DNA from: a virus
Length of the DNA stretch: 56,040 nt
Direction: 5' to 3' (one strand)
Virus record (IMG/VR): IMGVR_UViG_3300045256_000426
Location: 1 to 56,040 of that record
Shown here: piece by piece, positions 14,804-56,040 of the stretch
How the letters are laid out: each line of letters begins with the position of its first letter
How positions within the stretch are numbered: the stretch's first letter is position 1
Translations under genes and position numbers: made by a program
The notes under the pieces: model-generated
Seen by the model: the letters and a program-made list of their open reading frames with translations, nothing else
Told to the model about the DNA's origin: nothing
Database searches by the model: none

Positions 14804-16468
14804 CTAGCTCTGCATCCAGTTCGCGATGGCCTTCTTGGCCTTCTCGCGAAGAATCGTTTGGATTCGTTTCTTGCCGGTCTGGTCGAAGCCGGAAACGATG
14901 GAGAGCCCGTGGTCGGGAGCCTCGGTCCCATCCTCCCGGGTGTATACCCGCGCTGCCGCCGCTCCGATATGGTTCTCTTCGCGCGTACGCAGCGCCAACA
15001 GCAACGCGAGGACCCGGTCGTCGTGCCCTACCTCGGCCTCGTACTTGCCGTTATCCTGGCGGGAGAAATGCTTGATCTCGTCGAGCGTGCTGCTGTCGTG
15101 GAGCGTGATGAGGCGCGTATTGATCGCGCGACGACCCGCTTCGATGAGGAGCGGACGGCTGTAGACGTTGGTGACCCAGCCCCACAACTTGGCGTTCGCT
15201 TTCTGGAAATGGTCAGGCTTACCACGCCAGGGATGGAACCGGGGGTAGTTGTGGACCCGGAGCAGATAGTCCTGGATCGCGAGGCCCGTGCTCTGCACCT
15301 CGACGTTGACGATTGCGGTGTTGTACCAGCGCCCTAGCTTGTTGATGATACGGGACATGTCCCAAGGGGCAATGGCACCGTGGACGATCGCGACCTGTTC
15401 GATCGTATCCATGTCGAGGACCTGGGCGCAGGCGTAGTCGCCGGTTTCTTTGCCCTCGCGATATACGAAGCCGGTATCGACGCCGATCGCGTACTGGTGG
15501 CCGGCCTGCGGCCTCTTCCAGATCTGGATCTCACCGGACGCGTCTTCGAGTAGCTGATCTCCATGACAGGTCAGCCGCTCGGCCGGTGGCTTGATGTTGG
15601 GCTGCTGGGCGAGGATCGCGAGATGATCGAATGCCGGGAGCCCTCGGCTGATGAAGGCTTCCTCGGCCGTCGAGGGATATTCCTGGTGGAACATCTCGAT
15701 CATGCCTTCGCAGGTTGTCGCGATCTGGTTGCGCCGCCAACGGAGACTGCGGCCGTCGAGCCCAAGATCGCCGAAGACCTTCACCAGGAGTTTCTCTTCC
15801 TCGTCCCACTCGGACTCCGGGACCGGCGGGTCCTCCCGGTACTTCGGCATGATGAACCACGGGATGAAGATGGGACGGAAACGAGAGCGCCCATCTACCG
15901 CCATCTTCCATTGCTTGTAGAAGAGCTCGCCTTGCCCGGCGACCCCGTTCGCCGTACTCTCCAGGATGAAGATCGTATCGGGTAGATACGGTACCGCCTG
16001 CGACAACCCGACGAACACTTCCGGGTGAGGCCAGAACGCAAGCTCGGAGGCATGGACGCAGGTTTGCGTGGTACCTCGGCCCTTGCTCGCGATACCGGCG
16101 GAGATAACCTTGAACCGCGAAACACCGCCCGGCAGCGGAAGCACGAGCTCTTTCATCTTCGAGGGTGTAAGCTTCGGCAGCGGCAGGTAGTCGTAGAACC
16201 GCTTGGCCGTCTCGAAGATCGCCGTTGTGCTATCGAGGTCCTGGGCGATGACGAGGCTGTGTGTATTGGCGTGTTCGAGGGTACGTGTGAAGACGAGGGC
16301 CTCGAAGAACGTACTCGCGTAGACCTGACGCCCCTTGAGCACTATGAACCAGAGCGGATCGTGGTTATCGAGACGAGGAGCGATCGGCCTCCACAGGATC
16401 TTCTGGCTATCCGAGAAACGAAGAGGGACGATACGACTCCGTTCGTCTCGGATGAAGAGACCCTGCAT
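14804..16468 (-). CDS. terL: Terminase large subunit
   Basis: A 554-residue packaging ATPase-nuclease. Residues 45-53 (KGRQVYAST) are the Walker A-like motif of large terminases, 168-175 (ILESTANG) the Walker B and coupling motif. The C-terminal RNase H-like nuclease has GVDTG near residue 330, EVQSTG near 385 and GHDDRVLAL near 485. It acts at the portal vertex to translocate and cut DNA. ATG at 16468 has no ribosome binding site; the frame is open upstream to a CTG at 16498, so the true start may be earlier. Confidence 0.9.
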   Translation of the reverse strand: MQGLFIRDERSRIVPLRFSDSQKILWRPIAPRLDNHDPLWFIVLKGRQVYASTFFEALVFTRTLEHANTHSLVIAQDLDSTTAIFETAKRFYDYLPLPKLTPSKMKELVLPLPGGVSRFKVISAGIASKGRGTTQTCVHASELAFWPHPEVFVGLSQAVPYLPDTIFILESTANGVAGQGELFYKQWKMAVDGRSRFRPIFIPWFIMPKYREDPPVPESEWDEEEKLLVKVFGDLGLDGRSLRWRRNQIATTCEGMIEMFHQEYPSTAEEAFISRGLPAFDHLAILAQQPNIKPPAERLTCHGDQLLEDASGEIQIWKRPQAGHQYAIGVDTGFVYREGKETGDYACAQVLDMDTIEQVAIVHGAIAPWDMSRIINKLGRWYNTAIVNVEVQSTGLAIQDYLLRVHNYPRFHPWRGKPDHFQKANAKLWGWVTNVYSRPLLIEAGRRAINTRLITLHDSSTLDEIKHFSRQDNGKYEAEVGHDDRVLALLLALRTREENHIGAAAARVYTREDGTEAPDHGLSIVSGFDQTGKKRIQTILREKAKKAIANWMQS

Positions 16469-16518: not shown

Positions 16519-17178
16519 TTATGGGAGGGGGATCCTTCCTAGTTGGCCGGCGGCCTGCTCGGCCGCGCTACGATCGAGGATGTTCTGTGCCATGTGGTGT
16601 AGGGCTTGGTGCCAGGGCAGCCACGTAGAATCCGGGTAGGCCGGCGTGACACCCTTCTCCATCATGCGCGTGAAGATCGGGTAGCCATACTTTTCGGGCA
16701 TCCCGAACTGGCCACGGTTCACGCTGTAAAGTCCATGTAGGGCTTCGTGGACCATAGCAAGGGGACGATCTGCCGGGTTGAGCTTCGGGAGCGCCTGGAG
16801 AAGAACATCGGTACCTTCGGGGATAATCCCGAGTCTCGCGGCTTCCGGCGTCAGATTTCGATTCAGCATCCACGCAAGAGGTAGCCGATCCCCGGCTTGA
16901 TTGAGAAACTGCTGGACAACCGGGGGAACATCGTGTATCGTCGAGAAGGTAAACTTCGCGGGATTACGCGCGAGGGCGGAGTACACACGTGGTGCTACCT
17001 GCCGTAGCTCGCTGGCGAGCGGATGCATCGGGTTCGTCACGATCGCCGGAGAGGGCGCCAGTCCCGCGTTTGGATCGCGGGCTCCCGCGCGGATGATGGC
17101 ATCTACCCACGGAATCCCCGTGGGCTTGAACGAATCATCGAGACGCAACGGCGCGTCGGGGGTACCAGCGTATGGCAT
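16519..17178 (-). CDS. HExxH zincin-like protein
   Basis: A 219-residue protein with MVHEALHGLY (HExxH) near residues 144-153, the zinc-binding and catalytic motif of metallopeptidases. A second HQALHHM lies near residue 193. No signal peptide. Located directly upstream of the terminase gene in the late operon. It may process a virion protein or act on the cell wall during entry; the substrate is unknown. The start lacks a clear ribosome binding site. Confidence 0.6.
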   Translation of the reverse strand: MPYAGTPDAPLRLDDSFKPTGIPWVDAIIRAGARDPNAGLAPSPAIVTNPMHPLASELRQVAPRVYSALARNPAKFTFSTIHDVPPVVQQFLNQAGDRLPLAWMLNRNLTPEAARLGIIPEGTDVLLQALPKLNPADRPLAMVHEALHGLYSVNRGQFGMPEKYGYPIFTRMMEKGVTPAYPDSTWLPWHQALHHMAQNILDRSAAEQAAGQLGRIPLP

Positions 17179-17790: not shown

Positions 17791-18051
17791 CTACCCCTCC
17801 TCGGCGAGCAGCGAGGATGCGAGTCTACGCGCTGCCATTCGACGTTCCGACAGGGCGAGATCCTCATCGCTCTTGTAGAACGCCTTCCGGAACTTGAGCT
17901 CCTGCCAGATCTCCTGTTGATCCTGGGCCAGCTTCGTAATATCCGCCCGTACGACCGTCCACGGCTTGTACACGTAGCGATAGACCACGTAGGCAACGCC
18001 TACCGTCGTGAAGAGCCATGCGGCGGACATGAAGCCAAGAAGGATTTCCAT
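17791..18051 (-). CDS. Single-pass membrane protein with a coiled coil
   Basis: An 86-residue protein. Residues 4-27 form a transmembrane helix (FMSAAWLFTTVGVAYVVYRYV), followed by a charged helical region (ITKLAQDQQEIWQELKF). Start ATG at 18051 was chosen because ACGAGG lies 6 bases upstream; a GTG at 18072 would add 7 residues. Topology resembles an inner-membrane spanin (Rz-like), but it is far from the holin, so a virion membrane role is also possible. Confidence 0.6.
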   Translation of the reverse strand: MEILLGFMSAAWLFTTVGVAYVVYRYVYKPWTVVRADITKLAQDQQEIWQELKFRKAFYKSDEDLALSERRMAARRLASSLLAEEG

Positions 18052-18093: not shown

Positions 18094-18123
18094 CTCGTCT
18101 ATCGTCCTCTCGTCTATCGTCCT
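18094..18123. repeat. Two tandem copies of a 15-bp repeat
   Basis: CTCGTCTATCGTCCT occurs twice in direct succession (18094-18108 and 18109-18123), just upstream (minus strand) of the composite element and overlapping the sigma-like gene stop. It could be a protein-binding site pair. Confidence 0.6.
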
Positions 18124-19312
18124 AACGAGGCGTTGGTTCTTGTGGGGTTGGAGGGAGGGAATCTAGGAACGAGGCGGCGGCGGGGTCCGCCGGCGCGATC
18201 TTGTCCGGGGACAGGGAGCCACGAGGAGCACGCGCGGGCTTTTTCGGCGGAGCAGCGATGGGCTCGCCGGCGAGTTCGTTGATGATGCTGCGAATCTTAT
18301 CGAGTGCCTGGTTGTACTGCTGGGCGAGTCGCTGCTGGCGGACTCCCATCTGTCGGGCGATGGCCGAGACGCTCTGTCCGCCTTGGACGGCGAGGAGGAG
18401 CTCCCGGTCCTTCGGGTCGAGTTGTCCTAGGGCCTTGTCGAATAGCTGGTACTTTTCTTGGTCTCCCGCCGCTTGGAATACCTTCTCGACGTCGGGAGCT
18501 ACAGACAGTTCCGGGCGCGGCTCGGCCCTGGGAGATTGTTCGCCGCCGGGGATAGGACGAAGGCGGATCCAGCTTTTCTTCGACTCGGTAGTGGGAGCGA
18601 ACTCTGGTGTCTGGAAGGGAGATACCGGGTTCGGGCGGTCTATTCCCGCGAGAACATCCTCGACTTCCTGCTGGGAAATCGGGGTACCCGTTCGGTTGAG
18701 ATACTTTGTGATGCCGGCGGAAGACGGCTCAAACCCGCCGTACTTCGCGGAAGCGGCGCGCAGCTTGTCTTGCGCTGCTCGCACCATCTGGGCCTTATCC
18801 AAGAACTCTTCCGAAGGGGGGACAATCCGATTTATCGACTGCGCCCATCGCTTGACATCCCGTTGCATCTTGGGATAGATCCAATTGGCAAACTCTTCCA
18901 GGTTCTCTTCGATGGGCTTCCCGAAGTTGGCGGCATTCTCCGTATAGCTACGAAGGGCTTCCTGTATCGCGTCCGAGCGCATCGAAGGATTGCCGACGCT
19001 GTAGCGCCGGGAGATGGAACGAACGAGCGGAACGATCCGCTGGGGGAGGGAAGACAACGCTTGGGAGGTCCTGGAGAGCGCTTGTGGGGCCCTGGCGGCG
19101 CCGGGCCCGACGAGGGTCGCGAGACCGACGATATCCCGTAGTGTATCGCCCACGCGAGTACCTACCGTCTCCTGCGATGGTGTCTCCGCGGGGAATATAA
19201 CATCCCGCATGAAGTGGGAAAAGTCCTCGAGGGAGATCGGGCTCTGGGACGAGTAGACGTCGAGCGCCTGACTCTCGGGATCGACTCGCGGGGTGGTGGC
19301 CGCTACGGGCAT
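18122..19312 (-). CDS. Sigma-70-like protein with a virion-type N-terminal module
   Basis: A 396-residue protein in two parts. Residues 25-107 are homologous to residues 65-143 of the large internal virion protein of this phage (RDVIFP, RVGD, VGPG, PLVRSI shared). Residues 93-168 follow the sigma region 2 pattern (LVRSISRRY, DAIQEAL, EFANWIYPKMQRDVKRW, NRIVPP); 172-231 look like region 3; 290-347 like region 4 with a helix-turn-helix (LGQLDPKDRELL, SAIARQMGVRQQRLAQQYNQ). I infer a phage sigma factor that may be packaged in or ejected from the virion, because it is in the late operon and shares the virion module. It could instead be a virion protein that only borrowed the fold. Confidence 0.6.
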   Translation of the reverse strand: MPVAATTPRVDPESQALDVYSSQSPISLEDFSHFMRDVIFPAETPSQETVGTRVGDTLRDIVGLATLVGPGAARAPQALSRTSQALSSLPQRIVPLVRSISRRYSVGNPSMRSDAIQEALRSYTENAANFGKPIEENLEEFANWIYPKMQRDVKRWAQSINRIVPPSEEFLDKAQMVRAAQDKLRAASAKYGGFEPSSAGITKYLNRTGTPISQQEVEDVLAGIDRPNPVSPFQTPEFAPTTESKKSWIRLRPIPGGEQSPRAEPRPELSVAPDVEKVFQAAGDQEKYQLFDKALGQLDPKDRELLLAVQGGQSVSAIARQMGVRQQRLAQQYNQALDKIRSIINELAGEPIAAPPKKPARAPRGSLSPDKIAPADPAAASFLDSLPPTPQEPTPR

Positions 19313-19318
19313 GGGATC

Positions 19319-19885
19319 CTAGTGGGTCGATAGGGCAAGGATGGGGTATTGCCGGTTGGGAAGGCAGCTGTGGGTACGGAGGGATACCTGGTTGATCCGG
19401 TCGCGAATGCTGCCATGGGTGATCTCGGGCTCGTCGATATCCCGATTGGCGATCTGGGCGAGGTGCCGAAACGTCTGCTCCGCCACCGCCGTGCCGTCGT
19501 ACCCCAGGTTGCACATCCAGGTCGCGGCTAGTACATCGGCCTCCTGTTCCAGGTCCGCGCTGGCCATCTGGTACAGCCGGCCGTCCTGCCACTGGATGCA
19601 GTGCCCGAGCTCGTGGAGGAGAACGAAGAACTGCTCGTCGGGTGGCATCTGTTCCTGTAAACCTGTGGAGAACGCGATCAGGACGTGGACGTTCCCGTTG
19701 TCGTCGCCTTCTAACGCCATGAACGCATTGGGGAAATCGTCGTCATAGGAACCGAAGGTAACGTTCCGGCAGCCTACCCACCGGGCGAGAGTCTGCGGGT
19801 CCCAGCCGGGTTCGAGCGAGACGGCCGTCGGCGTGGTGACTACGCAGAGAGCCACCAGCAAAAAAGCGAGCAAAATACGCCGCAT
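19319..19885 (-). CDS. Secreted HExxH metallopeptidase-like protein
   Basis: A 188-residue protein. Residues 1-23 are a signal peptide or N-terminal membrane helix (MRRILLAFLLVALCVV). LLHELGHCIQW near residue 90 is a HExxH zinc motif, and a later Glu (LEQEADVLAATW) fits the third zinc ligand of the HExxH...E clan. Start ATG at 19885 is chosen because the signal peptide begins there. It may act on the cell envelope or virion during release or entry. Confidence 0.65.
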   Translation of the reverse strand: MRRILLAFLLVALCVVTTPTAVSLEPGWDPQTLARWVGCRNVTFGSYDDDFPNAFMALEGDDNGNVHVLIAFSTGLQEQMPPDEQFFVLLHELGHCIQWQDGRLYQMASADLEQEADVLAATWMCNLGYDGTAVAEQTFRHLAQIANRDIDEPEITHGSIRDRINQVSLRTHSCLPNRQYPILALSTH

Positions 19886-19923: not shown

Positions 19924-20628
19924 CTACTCGACTGAGAGACCCGCCTGAGTAGGGCCGGTGGGCGCAGTGCCCGAGGAGGGCGGGTGGTCGTGCTCGTCTC
20001 CCCATTTCCACTCGTGGCCTTCCCATCGGAGGACGGCAAAGCCACCGGGGGCAATGGGATCTTCGTCCCGAAGAAGAACCTTCCCGGGGGGTTCGTGGAG
20101 GACACCGTTGACCCCATGTTCGAACAGGGCACGAACCACACGAACGTTCCGGGAATGGGTGATCAGGGCGATCGGAAAGGGAGCTGCCTGTGCGAACAGG
20201 AACAGCTGCGACAAGGCAGAAAGGAAGCGTTCGGCGAAGGTGAGGTAGCTTTCGCCTCCCGGTGCCGGCGTGGCCTTGTCGACCAGCAGCGCTTGGAGTT
20301 TGTCCTTGATGGCGTCGACTGGTTGGCCGGTGTAGCGGCCGACGTCCCACGGCCGGAACGCCGGACTGGGGAGGATGGGGGCCGGGGTCGGGAGGGCCTG
20401 TCGGATAATCTGGGCGGTTTCGATCGCCCGGAGCAGATCCGACGAGAAGAGAACCCGGGGGTTGTAGGTCGCGATCGCCGGCGCGAGCTTACGAACGGTA
20501 GCCTGGCCTTTCGGGTCCAGGGGAACGTTCTGCCAGCCCCGAATGCGCTCCCGGCCGAGATTCAGCGCCGTTTCCCCGTGTCGGACGAGAAGAACGAGGG
20601 GAGACGGGGAGGGTGGTACGTCCGGCAT
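19924..20628 (-). CDS. Histidine phosphatase (phosphoglycerate mutase-like) family protein
   Basis: A 234-residue protein. LLVRHGETALN (residues about 12-22) is the RHGE catalytic motif, LFSSDLLRAIETAQ is the second conserved Arg region, and ITHSRNVRVV near residue 155 provides the second catalytic His (THSRNVR instead of the usual GHGGVIR). About 40 C-terminal residues are Pro/Thr/Gly-rich. It is first or second in the late operon. Substrate unknown; phosphate removal from a nucleotide or sugar is plausible. Confidence 0.7.
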   Translation of the reverse strand: MPDVPPSPSPLVLLVRHGETALNLGRERIRGWQNVPLDPKGQATVRKLAPAIATYNPRVLFSSDLLRAIETAQIIRQALPTPAPILPSPAFRPWDVGRYTGQPVDAIKDKLQALLVDKATPAPGGESYLTFAERFLSALSQLFLFAQAAPFPIALITHSRNVRVVRALFEHGVNGVLHEPPGKVLLRDEDPIAPGGFAVLRWEGHEWKWGDEHDHPPSSGTAPTGPTQAGLSVE

Positions 20629-21668: not shown

Positions 21669-21704
21669 TGGGGAAGCGAGGGTAGTGCCATCCCGCCCCG
21701 GGAT
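21669..21704 (+). repeat. 36-bp exact direct repeat, copy 1
   Basis: Identical to 22513-22548. It ends in the dyad ATCCCG-CCC-CGGGAT. Degenerate versions of the same dyad lie at about 22604-22620 and 22700-22716. Confidence 0.9.
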
Positions 21705-37018: not shown

Positions 37019-37320
37019 AGGATACGTAGTACTACGTAGTACTCGTAGTACCACGTAGTATCCCGTAGTACCTTGTAGTACTACGTACCCTGTACCACGT
37101 GGTACTCGTAGTACCACGTAACTACGGAATACCACGTAACTACAGGAAACTACGGGCTCGTTTCTGTAGTAATGAACATCATGATATAGTGAACATAGTA
37201 TCTCCTACGTAGTACTACGTAGTACTCGTAGTACCACGTAACTACGGAATACCACGTAACTACAGGAAACTACGTAATACCACGGGTACCTAGAACGTAG
37301 CACCTCGTAGTAACTACGTA
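37019..37320. repeat. TACGTAGTAC repeat array with an AT-rich core (candidate replication origin)
   Basis: About 300 bp built from TACGTAGTAC, TCGTAGTACCACG and related words. A 53-bp exact direct repeat (37102-37154 and 37222-37274, period 120) and a 35-bp exact repeat (37023-37057 and 37206-37240) overlap it. Between the two halves, 37155-37200 is AT-rich (GAACATCATGATATAGTG). Iterons next to an AT-rich stretch, just upstream of replication genes, are compatible with an origin; a long structured leader RNA is the alternative. Confidence 0.6.
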
Positions 37321-53649: not shown

Positions 53650-56040
53650 CTAGTGGAGAACGCGTTCTTGACGGGTACGGGAGGGACGAAGCTCCCGACG
53701 CTGTTGGAGCATCCGGTCGCGGTTGTAGAGCCTCTCTCCGCGCTGGACTTCCGGAGACTTGGGTAGGATCGACTCGGGAATGAGGGCGCCGAATCGCTTG
53801 GGAGGATTCCCCACGGCGTTGTGCGCGGCGAGCGTGGCCATCGCGAAGATCCGCAGAAGATGGCCGGGGTCGTTATCTTGCAGGTACTTCTCGAACTCGT
53901 AGGTCGCGCCGTAGGGATCCGCGATCTGCGCGAGCCCCCAGAACGTCCGCCGCACGAACTTCATGTCGAGCTTACCGGTCGCGATGGCGTCGGTGAGGTT
54001 GCGCCAGAAGTACCCCGACGATTGCCCGCCTGGGCCGAAGAGGCCCGTCGTCGCAAGGAACGCCAGGAGGGCTTTTCGCCCCTCTGGGAGGCCTCTGCGG
54101 CCGGCGTCGAGCAGGCCGTACAGTGGCCCCTCGATGTAGTCGATCGGTGCATGCAGCCAGAAGCCGGTCTTGCGGTAGAGCTCCTCACGGAGCAGGTCGA
54201 TCGCCCCGACCCACAAAACCGCCCGGACCGGATTTTCGCGCATCGACTTTACCAGCGAGACAACCGTGCCTACCCGCCACGGTACGAAGAAGTTGAACGG
54301 CATTGATTTCCAGACATCCATCGCCTTCGACCGCATCGCGTACCGGACAAGATCGAGGTTGACACGATTGGCCGCGTCTTGGGGTTCGACGCCCGCCTCG
54401 ATGTACTGTTTGAACCGGGCGGCCTTCGCCGCCGGATCCGCAATCGAGAACGTACGCCTTGAGCTCCAACGTTGTACCGAGGTGAGGGGTGTGGCGACGC
54501 GAGAGAGAAGCCCGCGCCCCCGAATGTCTTGGAGGGTCTGGTGGAAGACGTCGCTAGCCATCTGACCCTCTGGGTCGAACGGCATGTACCTCTCGAACAG
54601 CGCGCGCATTTCGGGGTTACTACCCTGTAGGTACTCGCGCCTGTCCTGGAGGAGACGTGTCATCTTGCCGCCGCTGAGACCGAACTTGTACCAGATGTTC
54701 TTGAACTCGTGGGGGTACGGGATAATGAGGTTCGGCGAACGGAGGAAGCGATTGCCGAAGTCCACCACGCGGGCCAACGCGCCGAGTATGTGTGGATTCG
54801 AGAGGTGGTCGCGGATGAACTGGCCGTATTCTGGGAGGGTCGTCCACCATTCCCCACCTCCGGGAATGCCCGTTACCCGGTAGGGGCGACCTCCGCCCAT
54901 CGCCTCACTCGCGGCTTTCTCTGCGCGGAAGAGGATTCCGTTGTCTTCCAGGCTCTTGATGAACTGGTAGGTCTTAACCATCTTCTGCCCAGCCCAGATA
55001 CGGAGCCAGAGAGCGAGACGAGGATCTGCGTATTTCTCCCCGGCCTCCATCCCTATCGACATCGTTGGGAATATCCGAGGCTTCTCGAACGCACCGAGTG
55101 TCGTCCGGATATCACTTCGTAGGCCGGTAGACGCCCTTGAGAGGGAGATGACGCGGCTCAAGTCTTTCTCGGCTACGTGCGGGACAACGTAGAAAGGCTC
55201 GTCGAATAACGGTCTCTCGCGGAAGAATAGGGCGGCTTCTTGTTCCTGCGGTCGAAGCACCTTGCGGAGATAGTCCGTGCCCGAACGAATCTCCGGCGGC
55301 AGCGTACCGTACGCCGCCTCCGCATCCCCCGTCTTTTTCCAGATGCGGTACGCACGCGCTTCGGCAGCAACCCACGCACCAGGATCGGTCACACGAAGCG
55401 CCGGGAGCTTCGAGGCGTCCCGCATCGCAGCCGTTAGATCCGTCGCCGCCTGGTCATGCAGCGTCACCAGCGGATGGTTGGGGTTCACCCGCCACAGCCT
55501 ATAGTCTACGGGCAGCTTGTCCCTGACCCATGCCTTTGCGCGGGCCCAGTAGGATTCCTGGGGAGTCGGGATATGCGGTGGGGCAACCGGCGTCGGCGAT
55601 GTGGCCGTAGCGGCCTCTTGTAGTGCCGCTGCTTTCCGCGCGTCTCCCAAGGCGATGCCAAGAGGGTCGAGGGACGAAGGCTCGACCTCACGTACCCCCT
55701 CGGGGCCGTAACGAAGACGAGGACGTTGTAGCGCGGCTGCCTTCTGCGTGTCTCCCGCGGTGATACCGAGAGTATCCGGGATCGTAGGTTCAGCCGGAGG
55801 GTGATTCGATGCCGAGGGAGAGGGTACCGAGGGAGGGGGTACCTCACGTACCCCTTCCGGACCGTAACGAAGACGAAGACGCGACGCCGAGGCGGGCGTT
55901 GTCTCCGCCGCCTCCGTGGCCTTTGTCGCGGCGCCCTGCGCGGCCGGCGTCCCTAGTCGTTTGCCGAGCGCACCGAGCGTTTCCTCGGCTTTCTCTGCGA
56001 TGTCCGGGTGTACGCCGGCGCCGAAGCGCTGGGCGATCGA
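53650..56040 (-). CDS. Large internal virion protein, C-terminal part; continues across the junction to base 771
   Basis: The frame is open from the right end to the stop at 53650 and continues the N-terminal part at 1-771. It repeats LRYGPEGVREV and GDxxKAAALQ units near 55.6-55.8 kb, then carries a long helical region with SRRTFSIADPAAKAARFKQY and WKSMPFNFFVPWRVG, resembling large polyvalent (LPD38-like) or internal virion proteins. Residues near 54100-54250 are hydrophobic (ALLAFLATTGLFGPGG). Probably ejected into the cell with the DNA. No peptidase or transglycosylase motif found. Confidence 0.7.
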   Translation of the reverse strand, partial: SIAQRFGAGVHPDIAEKAEETLGALGKRLGTPAAQGAATKATEAAETTPASASRLRLRYGPEGVREVPPPSVPSPSASNHPPAEPTIPDTLGITAGDTQKAAALQRPRLRYGPEGVREVEPSSLDPLGIALGDARKAAALQEAATATSPTPVAPPHIPTPQESYWARAKAWVRDKLPVDYRLWRVNPNHPLVTLHDQAATDLTAAMRDASKLPALRVTDPGAWVAAEARAYRIWKKTGDAEAAYGTLPPEIRSGTDYLRKVLRPQEQEAALFFRERPLFDEPFYVVPHVAEKDLSRVISLSRASTGLRSDIRTTLGAFEKPRIFPTMSIGMEAGEKYADPRLALWLRIWAGQKMVKTYQFIKSLEDNGILFRAEKAASEAMGGGRPYRVTGIPGGGEWWTTLPEYGQFIRDHLSNPHILGALARVVDFGNRFLRSPNLIIPYPHEFKNIWYKFGLSGGKMTRLLQDRREYLQGSNPEMRALFERYMPFDPEGQMASDVFHQTLQDIRGRGLLSRVATPLTSVQRWSSRRTFSIADPAAKAARFKQYIEAGVEPQDAANRVNLDLVRYAMRSKAMDVWKSMPFNFFVPWRVGTVVSLVKSMRENPVRAVLWVGAIDLLREELYRKTGFWLHAPIDYIEGPLYGLLDAGRRGLPEGRKALLAFLATTGLFGPGGQSSGYFWRNLTDAIATGKLDMKFVRRTFWGLAQIADPYGATYEFEKYLQDNDPGHLLRIFAMATLAAHNAVGNPPKRFGALIPESILPKSPEVQRGERLYNRDRMLQQRRELRPSRTRQERVLH
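55672..56040. repeat. Terminal redundancy, right copy
   Basis: Gap-free match to bases 1-369 with about a dozen substitutions (for example near 55804, 55809 and 55811). Marks the circular or overlapping closure of the assembly. Confidence 0.85.

Follow-up and report, generated by a model that had tools for sequence, protein, structure and literature searches.

Phage sigma factors are well known. To our knowledge, most of them act inside the cell, on middle or late genes, and the only established virion-borne transcription proteins are whole RNA polymerases (N4, phiKZ) or modifiers (T4 Alt). In N4, the virion RNA polymerase is ejected (PMC12633501), while T4 has N-terminal capsid-targeting sequences and an ejected protein, Alt, that modifies RNA polymerase (PMC9026906). 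Two phage sigma factors have been detected in phage preparations by particle proteomics: SU10 CDS32, through one peptide (PMC4281155), and fRuSau02 Sig, for which the authors call a structural role unlikely (PMC5618024). In neither paper, in the parts drawn on here, is a module common to the sigma factor and a virion protein mentioned. A search of open-access literature turned up no claim that phage particles package a sigma factor.

The window analysed here, the whole 56,040-nucleotide stretch of IMG/VR virus record IMGVR_UViG_3300045256_000426, belongs to an uncultured phage and encodes a sigma-70-like protein, P0001. A preliminary description placed its gene at 18122–19312; these coordinates held, and the coding strand is the minus strand, the plus-strand reading being ruled out by stop codons throughout. 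The gene and its parts are as follows.

18122..19312, minus strand: whole gene of P0001, a 396-aa sigma-70-family protein (translation; TIGR02937, E = 2.7e-13)
18992..19243, minus strand: residues 24–107, the N-terminal module also present in the large late protein (blastp and Smith–Waterman comparison)
18824..19060, minus strand: sigma region 2, residues ~85–163, including DAIQEA (Pfam Sigma70_r2, PF04542, hhalign, reading of the alignment)
18620..18823, minus strand: sigma region 3-like helical domain, residues ~164–231 (AlphaFold2 pLDDT, collinearity in hhalign, conservation with G001)
18272..18475, minus strand: sigma region 4 helix-turn-helix, residues ~280–347 (Sigma70_r4_2, PHROG 1740, AlphaFold2 pLDDT)
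18125..18271, minus strand: Pro/Ala-rich C-terminal tail, residues 348–396 (sequence; low pLDDT)

By homology, P0001 is established as a divergent member of the sigma-70 family in which regions 2, 3 and 4 follow one another, in agreement with the preliminary description. The NCBIfam sigma-70 family profile TIGR02937 covers residues 85–342 at 49.9 bits, exceeding its curated cut-off of 42.9 bits, and PHROG 1740 (sigma factor) matches at 9.5e-9. The Pfam profiles Sigma70_r4_2 (8.5e-5) and Sigma70_r2 (residues 92–145, E = 0.0067) were both under Pfam's own cut-offs; a separate profile search retrieved PF04542 at 8.9e-5. In hhalign, residues 84–347 aligned collinearly with Escherichia coli RpoD, RpoS, RpoH and FliA (E = 3.8e-4), improving to 2.3e-6 once the protein of a related phage contig, G001, was added, with controls (shuffled or reversed sequences and further proteins of the window) at 0.046 or worse. 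By alignment only, DAIQEA corresponds to the core-binding motif of region 2.2, DLIQEG, and the region 4 helix-turn-helix to that of sigma factors. No close relative of the whole protein was found in IMG/VR or among GenBank phages.

Structure prediction, which the preliminary description had proposed as a check on the sigma fold, pointed the same way. Two AlphaFold2 models had a low overall pLDDT (52–54), with regions 3 and 4 mostly at 65–90 (84–90 for residues 171–220, mostly 68–84 in region 4) and region 2, the weakest part of P0001 across all tests, at ~35–50. When both models were compared with the PDB using Foldseek, nearly all of the matches listed were sigma factors, the best being Bacillus subtilis SigD (2.6e-4 and 1.9e-5), and FliA was also among the structural neighbours. 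In BFVD, two very large viral proteins, A0A2I7RYV6 (604 aa) and A0A2I7SAM6 (861 aa), gave a sigma-like structural match. The weakness of region 2, both in Pfam and in AlphaFold2, would suit a protein that has lost RNA polymerase binding, either a sigma-like relic or a structural protein that binds DNA. Such a loss of function is very unlikely in view of the TIGR02937 match, which spans regions 2–4 above the curated cut-off, the retained region 2.2 motif and region 4 helix-turn-helix, and the orthologue retained in G001.

The fold of P0001 is an ordinary sigma fold; what is unusual is its architecture and its genomic location. It resembles the group 3-like sigma factors (SigD/FliA/SigB/WhiG) and phage sigma factors such as phiEco32 gp36 in the order of regions 2-3-4, in the region 2.2 and region 4 motifs and in the TIGR02937 match. 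Unlike them, it has a Pro/Ala-rich tail and an N-terminal extension of 85 residues that recurs in another late protein of the phage, and it is encoded in a late operon, near the terminase. By homology, then, P0001 is a true phage sigma factor, and its architecture is new.

The other copy of the N-terminal module lies in a large late protein whose gene is divided between the two contig ends.

1..771, minus strand: large late protein, N-terminal part, putative internal virion or ejection protein, with a GTG start at 771 (open at the contig end)
343..582, minus strand: second copy of the module, residues 65–144 of the large protein (blastp and alignment with P0001)
53650..56040, minus strand: large late protein, C-terminal part (no PDB match; weak match to PHROG 22233 only)

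The reading frame that leaves the left end (ORF 774->1) reads on at 56040->53650, and the contig ends (5–369 and 55676–56040) share an in-frame overlap of 365 bp with 97.3% identity. The record is therefore probably that of a closed genome, with variant strains combined in the assembly, and we infer a joined protein of 931 aa, whose module copy lies wholly within the left piece. Residues 24–107 of P0001 match residues 65–144 of this protein (blastp, 49% identity over 87 aa, E = 4e-20), almost exactly the span given earlier (25–107 against 65–143), and the Smith–Waterman score of the pair is 196, while the best of 1000 shuffles scored 86. All four shared motifs listed in the preliminary description (RDVIFP, RVGD, VGPG and PLVRSI) are present in P0001 and in ORF 774->1 on the minus strand, and within the window RDVIFP and PLVRSI are confined to these two. 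Pairwise comparison thus shows the ~85-residue N-terminal extension of P0001 to be homologous, at the level of sequence, to the N-terminal part of the large late protein. The module had no significant match in any other protein of the window, of all fetched loci, of the phage records or of IMG/VR.

The earlier picture of a virion module fused to a sigma factor is one of several possible. The shared block continues as far as residue 107, and sigma region 2 already begins at ~residue 85–92, so that there is no clean domain boundary between the two. It ends within region 2.1, at RIVPLVRSISRRY in P0001 and RIGPLVRSIAQRF in the large protein (LRLVISIAKKY in RpoD), and the highest DNA identity of the block (82% over 49 nt) falls exactly on the stretch coding for the sigma 2.1 helix. 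Because the block runs into region 2.1, the sigma gene could have been the source of the segment and the virion gene its recipient, and copying in this direction is as possible as the reverse. Either one of the two genes was the donor of the N-terminus to the other, or both drew on a common donor. The fragment of the large protein, taken alone, had no significant match to sigma profiles.

Since the best-conserved DNA encodes the 2.1 helix, the sharing may be a trace of recombination with no targeting function. P0001 could then quite possibly be an ordinary late-gene phage sigma factor, made during infection and left unpackaged, which diverts the host RNA polymerase to late promoters, possibly those of its own operon among them, and whose N-terminal likeness to the large protein came from recombination between a pair of genes in one operon. 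A block that includes the 2.1 helix and has its top DNA identity there is what gene conversion from a sigma gene would be expected to leave. Characterised phage sigma factors work in this intracellular manner (phiEco32/SU10 promoters, PMC4281155), and the large sigma factor of phiA8-29 is located with recombination genes. Against this, the entire 84-residue block is kept at 49% identity, well beyond the helix alone, which suggests selection in both proteins, and the gene lies within the late rather than the early transcription unit.

The placement of the gene in the late, structural operon is borne out by its neighbourhood.

19924..20628, minus strand: histidine phosphatase superfamily gene that opens the leftward operon (Pfam PF00300, 1.1e-28)
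19319..19885, minus strand: upstream gene, M48-type metallopeptidase with a hydrophobic N-terminus, in the accessory slot (PF01435, 1.1e-5, over the cut-off; hydropathy)
17791..18051, minus strand: downstream gene g23, conserved with G001 (tblastn, 51%)
14804..16468, minus strand: large terminase, anchor of the late operon (PHROG 2, 4.8e-15)

The leftward transcription unit begins near 20.6 kb, and the order sigma-g23-g22-terminase-portal-MCP (major capsid protein)-tail-large protein-fibre runs on one strand, opposite to the replication genes (DNA polymerase and helicase) on the plus strand. Small genes and a 219-aa protein separate the sigma-like gene from the terminase, with g23 and g22 tying the two together. 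This arrangement puts the gene of P0001 close to the beginning of the late operon for head and tail proteins, in a phage of the short-tailed type. The same leftward unit encodes a HEALH-motif protein, a possible metallopeptidase (16519–17178, minus strand), which is weakly similar to a HEGLH-motif protein encoded beside the sigma gene of G001. A search of bacterial genomes for relatives of the MCP, which might have revealed a prophage or a host, retrieved none.

An GTAGTGCCATCCCGCCCCGGGAT repeat with the inner dyad ATCCCG-CCC-CGGGAT occurs at window positions 21682, 22526, 22599 and 22692 on the plus strand and 18094 on the minus strand; four copies lie in the area of the divergent operon starts and one follows directly on the sigma stop codon. 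On its sequence, the element looks like an operator or a hairpin. Its dyad was rejected as a promoter for the phage sigma factor, having no -35/-10 spacing. No phage-specific promoter motif was identified, and a search for sigma-70-type promoters between the divergent operons found 0, compared with 0.7 expected by chance. Dense short palindromic repeats of the TACGTAGTACTACGTA type fill positions 37024–37277, in a 659-bp gap between early genes, and motifs resembling them also occur near 22.2–22.5 kb.

The Mx8-like podoviruses (Myxoctovirus) have an MCP related to that of the window phage (29%) and a similar order of terminase, portal, MCP, tail and structural proteins; unlike the window phage, they have no annotated sigma factor within the stretch compared. 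Mx8 encodes virion structural proteins downstream of its tube genes, where in these podoviruses genes for internal virion proteins and then for tail fibres are found (PMC10386132). The large late protein of the window, encoded just before the tail fibre gene, occupies a matching position, which fits an internal virion protein. It had no significant family match (none in the PDB; PHROG 22233 weakly). The G001 protein at the corresponding position was matched at 2.6e-4 by a PHROG annotated as 'virion structural protein', and no homology between it and the large late protein was detected. From gene order only, we infer an internal or ejection protein. Thus, where the preliminary description spoke of a large internal virion protein encoded by this phage, a homologous late protein is certainly present, while its joining across the contig ends and its role in the virion are more conjectural.

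A module common to both proteins also suggests a common binding partner. The sigma module may bind the partner of the virion protein (portal, core or the site of the large protein), the sigma factor being held or freed as heads assemble and late transcription being tuned to assembly. FliA, which is tied to flagellar assembly via FlgM, offers a model, and FliA and SigD are structural neighbours of P0001. Coupling of this kind requires a partner, which is putative only, and we consider it unlikely.

A diverged orthologue of P0001 comes from G001, whose MCP is 77% identical to that of the window phage. The G001 sigma gene occupies the matching place, directly upstream of the small conserved gene that precedes the terminase, and encodes a 535-aa protein retrieved by TIGR02937 at E = 4e-8, under the curated cut-off. 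The two proteins are homologous over regions 2–4 (0 of 500 shuffles as good) and show no similarity in the N-terminal extension, where 202 of 500 shuffles scored as well. Comparison of the G001 sigma N-terminus with every other G001 protein revealed no shared module. The module is therefore absent from the one other phage with this sigma gene, which counts in favour of an intracellular sigma factor. Only these two of the 34 related contigs surveyed encode a full-length sigma factor. Because other relatives hold different proteins at this position, it is a variable accessory slot. This slot, upstream of g23/terminase, spans 18.1–20.6 kb of the window, L008:9662-12467, L098:1-1182, L017:741-1508 and L018:431-1930. 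It contains a sigma factor, an M48 peptidase and a phosphatase in the window, a sigma factor and the HEGLH-motif protein in G001, a thermolysin-like protein with a HELTH motif in L098, and other proteins, by eye possibly nuclease- and methylase-like, in L017 and L018.

Whether P0001 travels in the particle depends on how this evidence is weighed. Packaging is made plausible by the shared N-terminus, by the late-operon position and by the position of the partner gene, which fits an internal virion protein; it is weakened by the G001 sigma factor without a module, by a partner that is only a putative virion protein and by a block that reaches into sigma 2.1. On balance, we regard the presence of P0001 in the virion as quite possible, short of probable. 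The best explanation overall, itself a tentative one, would be that the shared module targets both proteins to the particle and that the ejected sigma factor starts phage transcription. The module would be a head- or core-targeting segment that recruits the sigma factor and the large protein into the particle, much as the T4 capsid-targeting sequences do for internal proteins. At infection, the sigma factor would enter along with the DNA and bind the core RNA polymerase of the host, which it would guide to the phage promoters used first. The full course of events, with packaging in the head via the module shared with the large ejection protein and then ejection, redirecting the host RNA polymerase from the first minute, is possible but decidedly tentative.

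Such a system would share with the N4 virion RNA polymerase the idea of transcription machinery carried by the particle; N4 carries a whole RNA polymerase, whereas P0001, putatively packaged, is only a specificity factor, which would use the host core enzyme. Its likeness to T4 Alt and the T4 internal proteins would lie in an N-terminal head-targeting segment and, for Alt, in the action on host RNA polymerase; the T4 sequences are ~10 residues long and cleaved, whereas the module of P0001 has ~84 residues. If P0001 is indeed packaged and ejected, it would reveal a module for head targeting and point to a way in which a phage can begin transcription at promoters that the host's own sigma factors do not read. 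An ejected specificity factor that uses the host core enzyme would then be a third strategy for virion-borne transcription, and a lightweight alternative to the virion RNA polymerase of N4.
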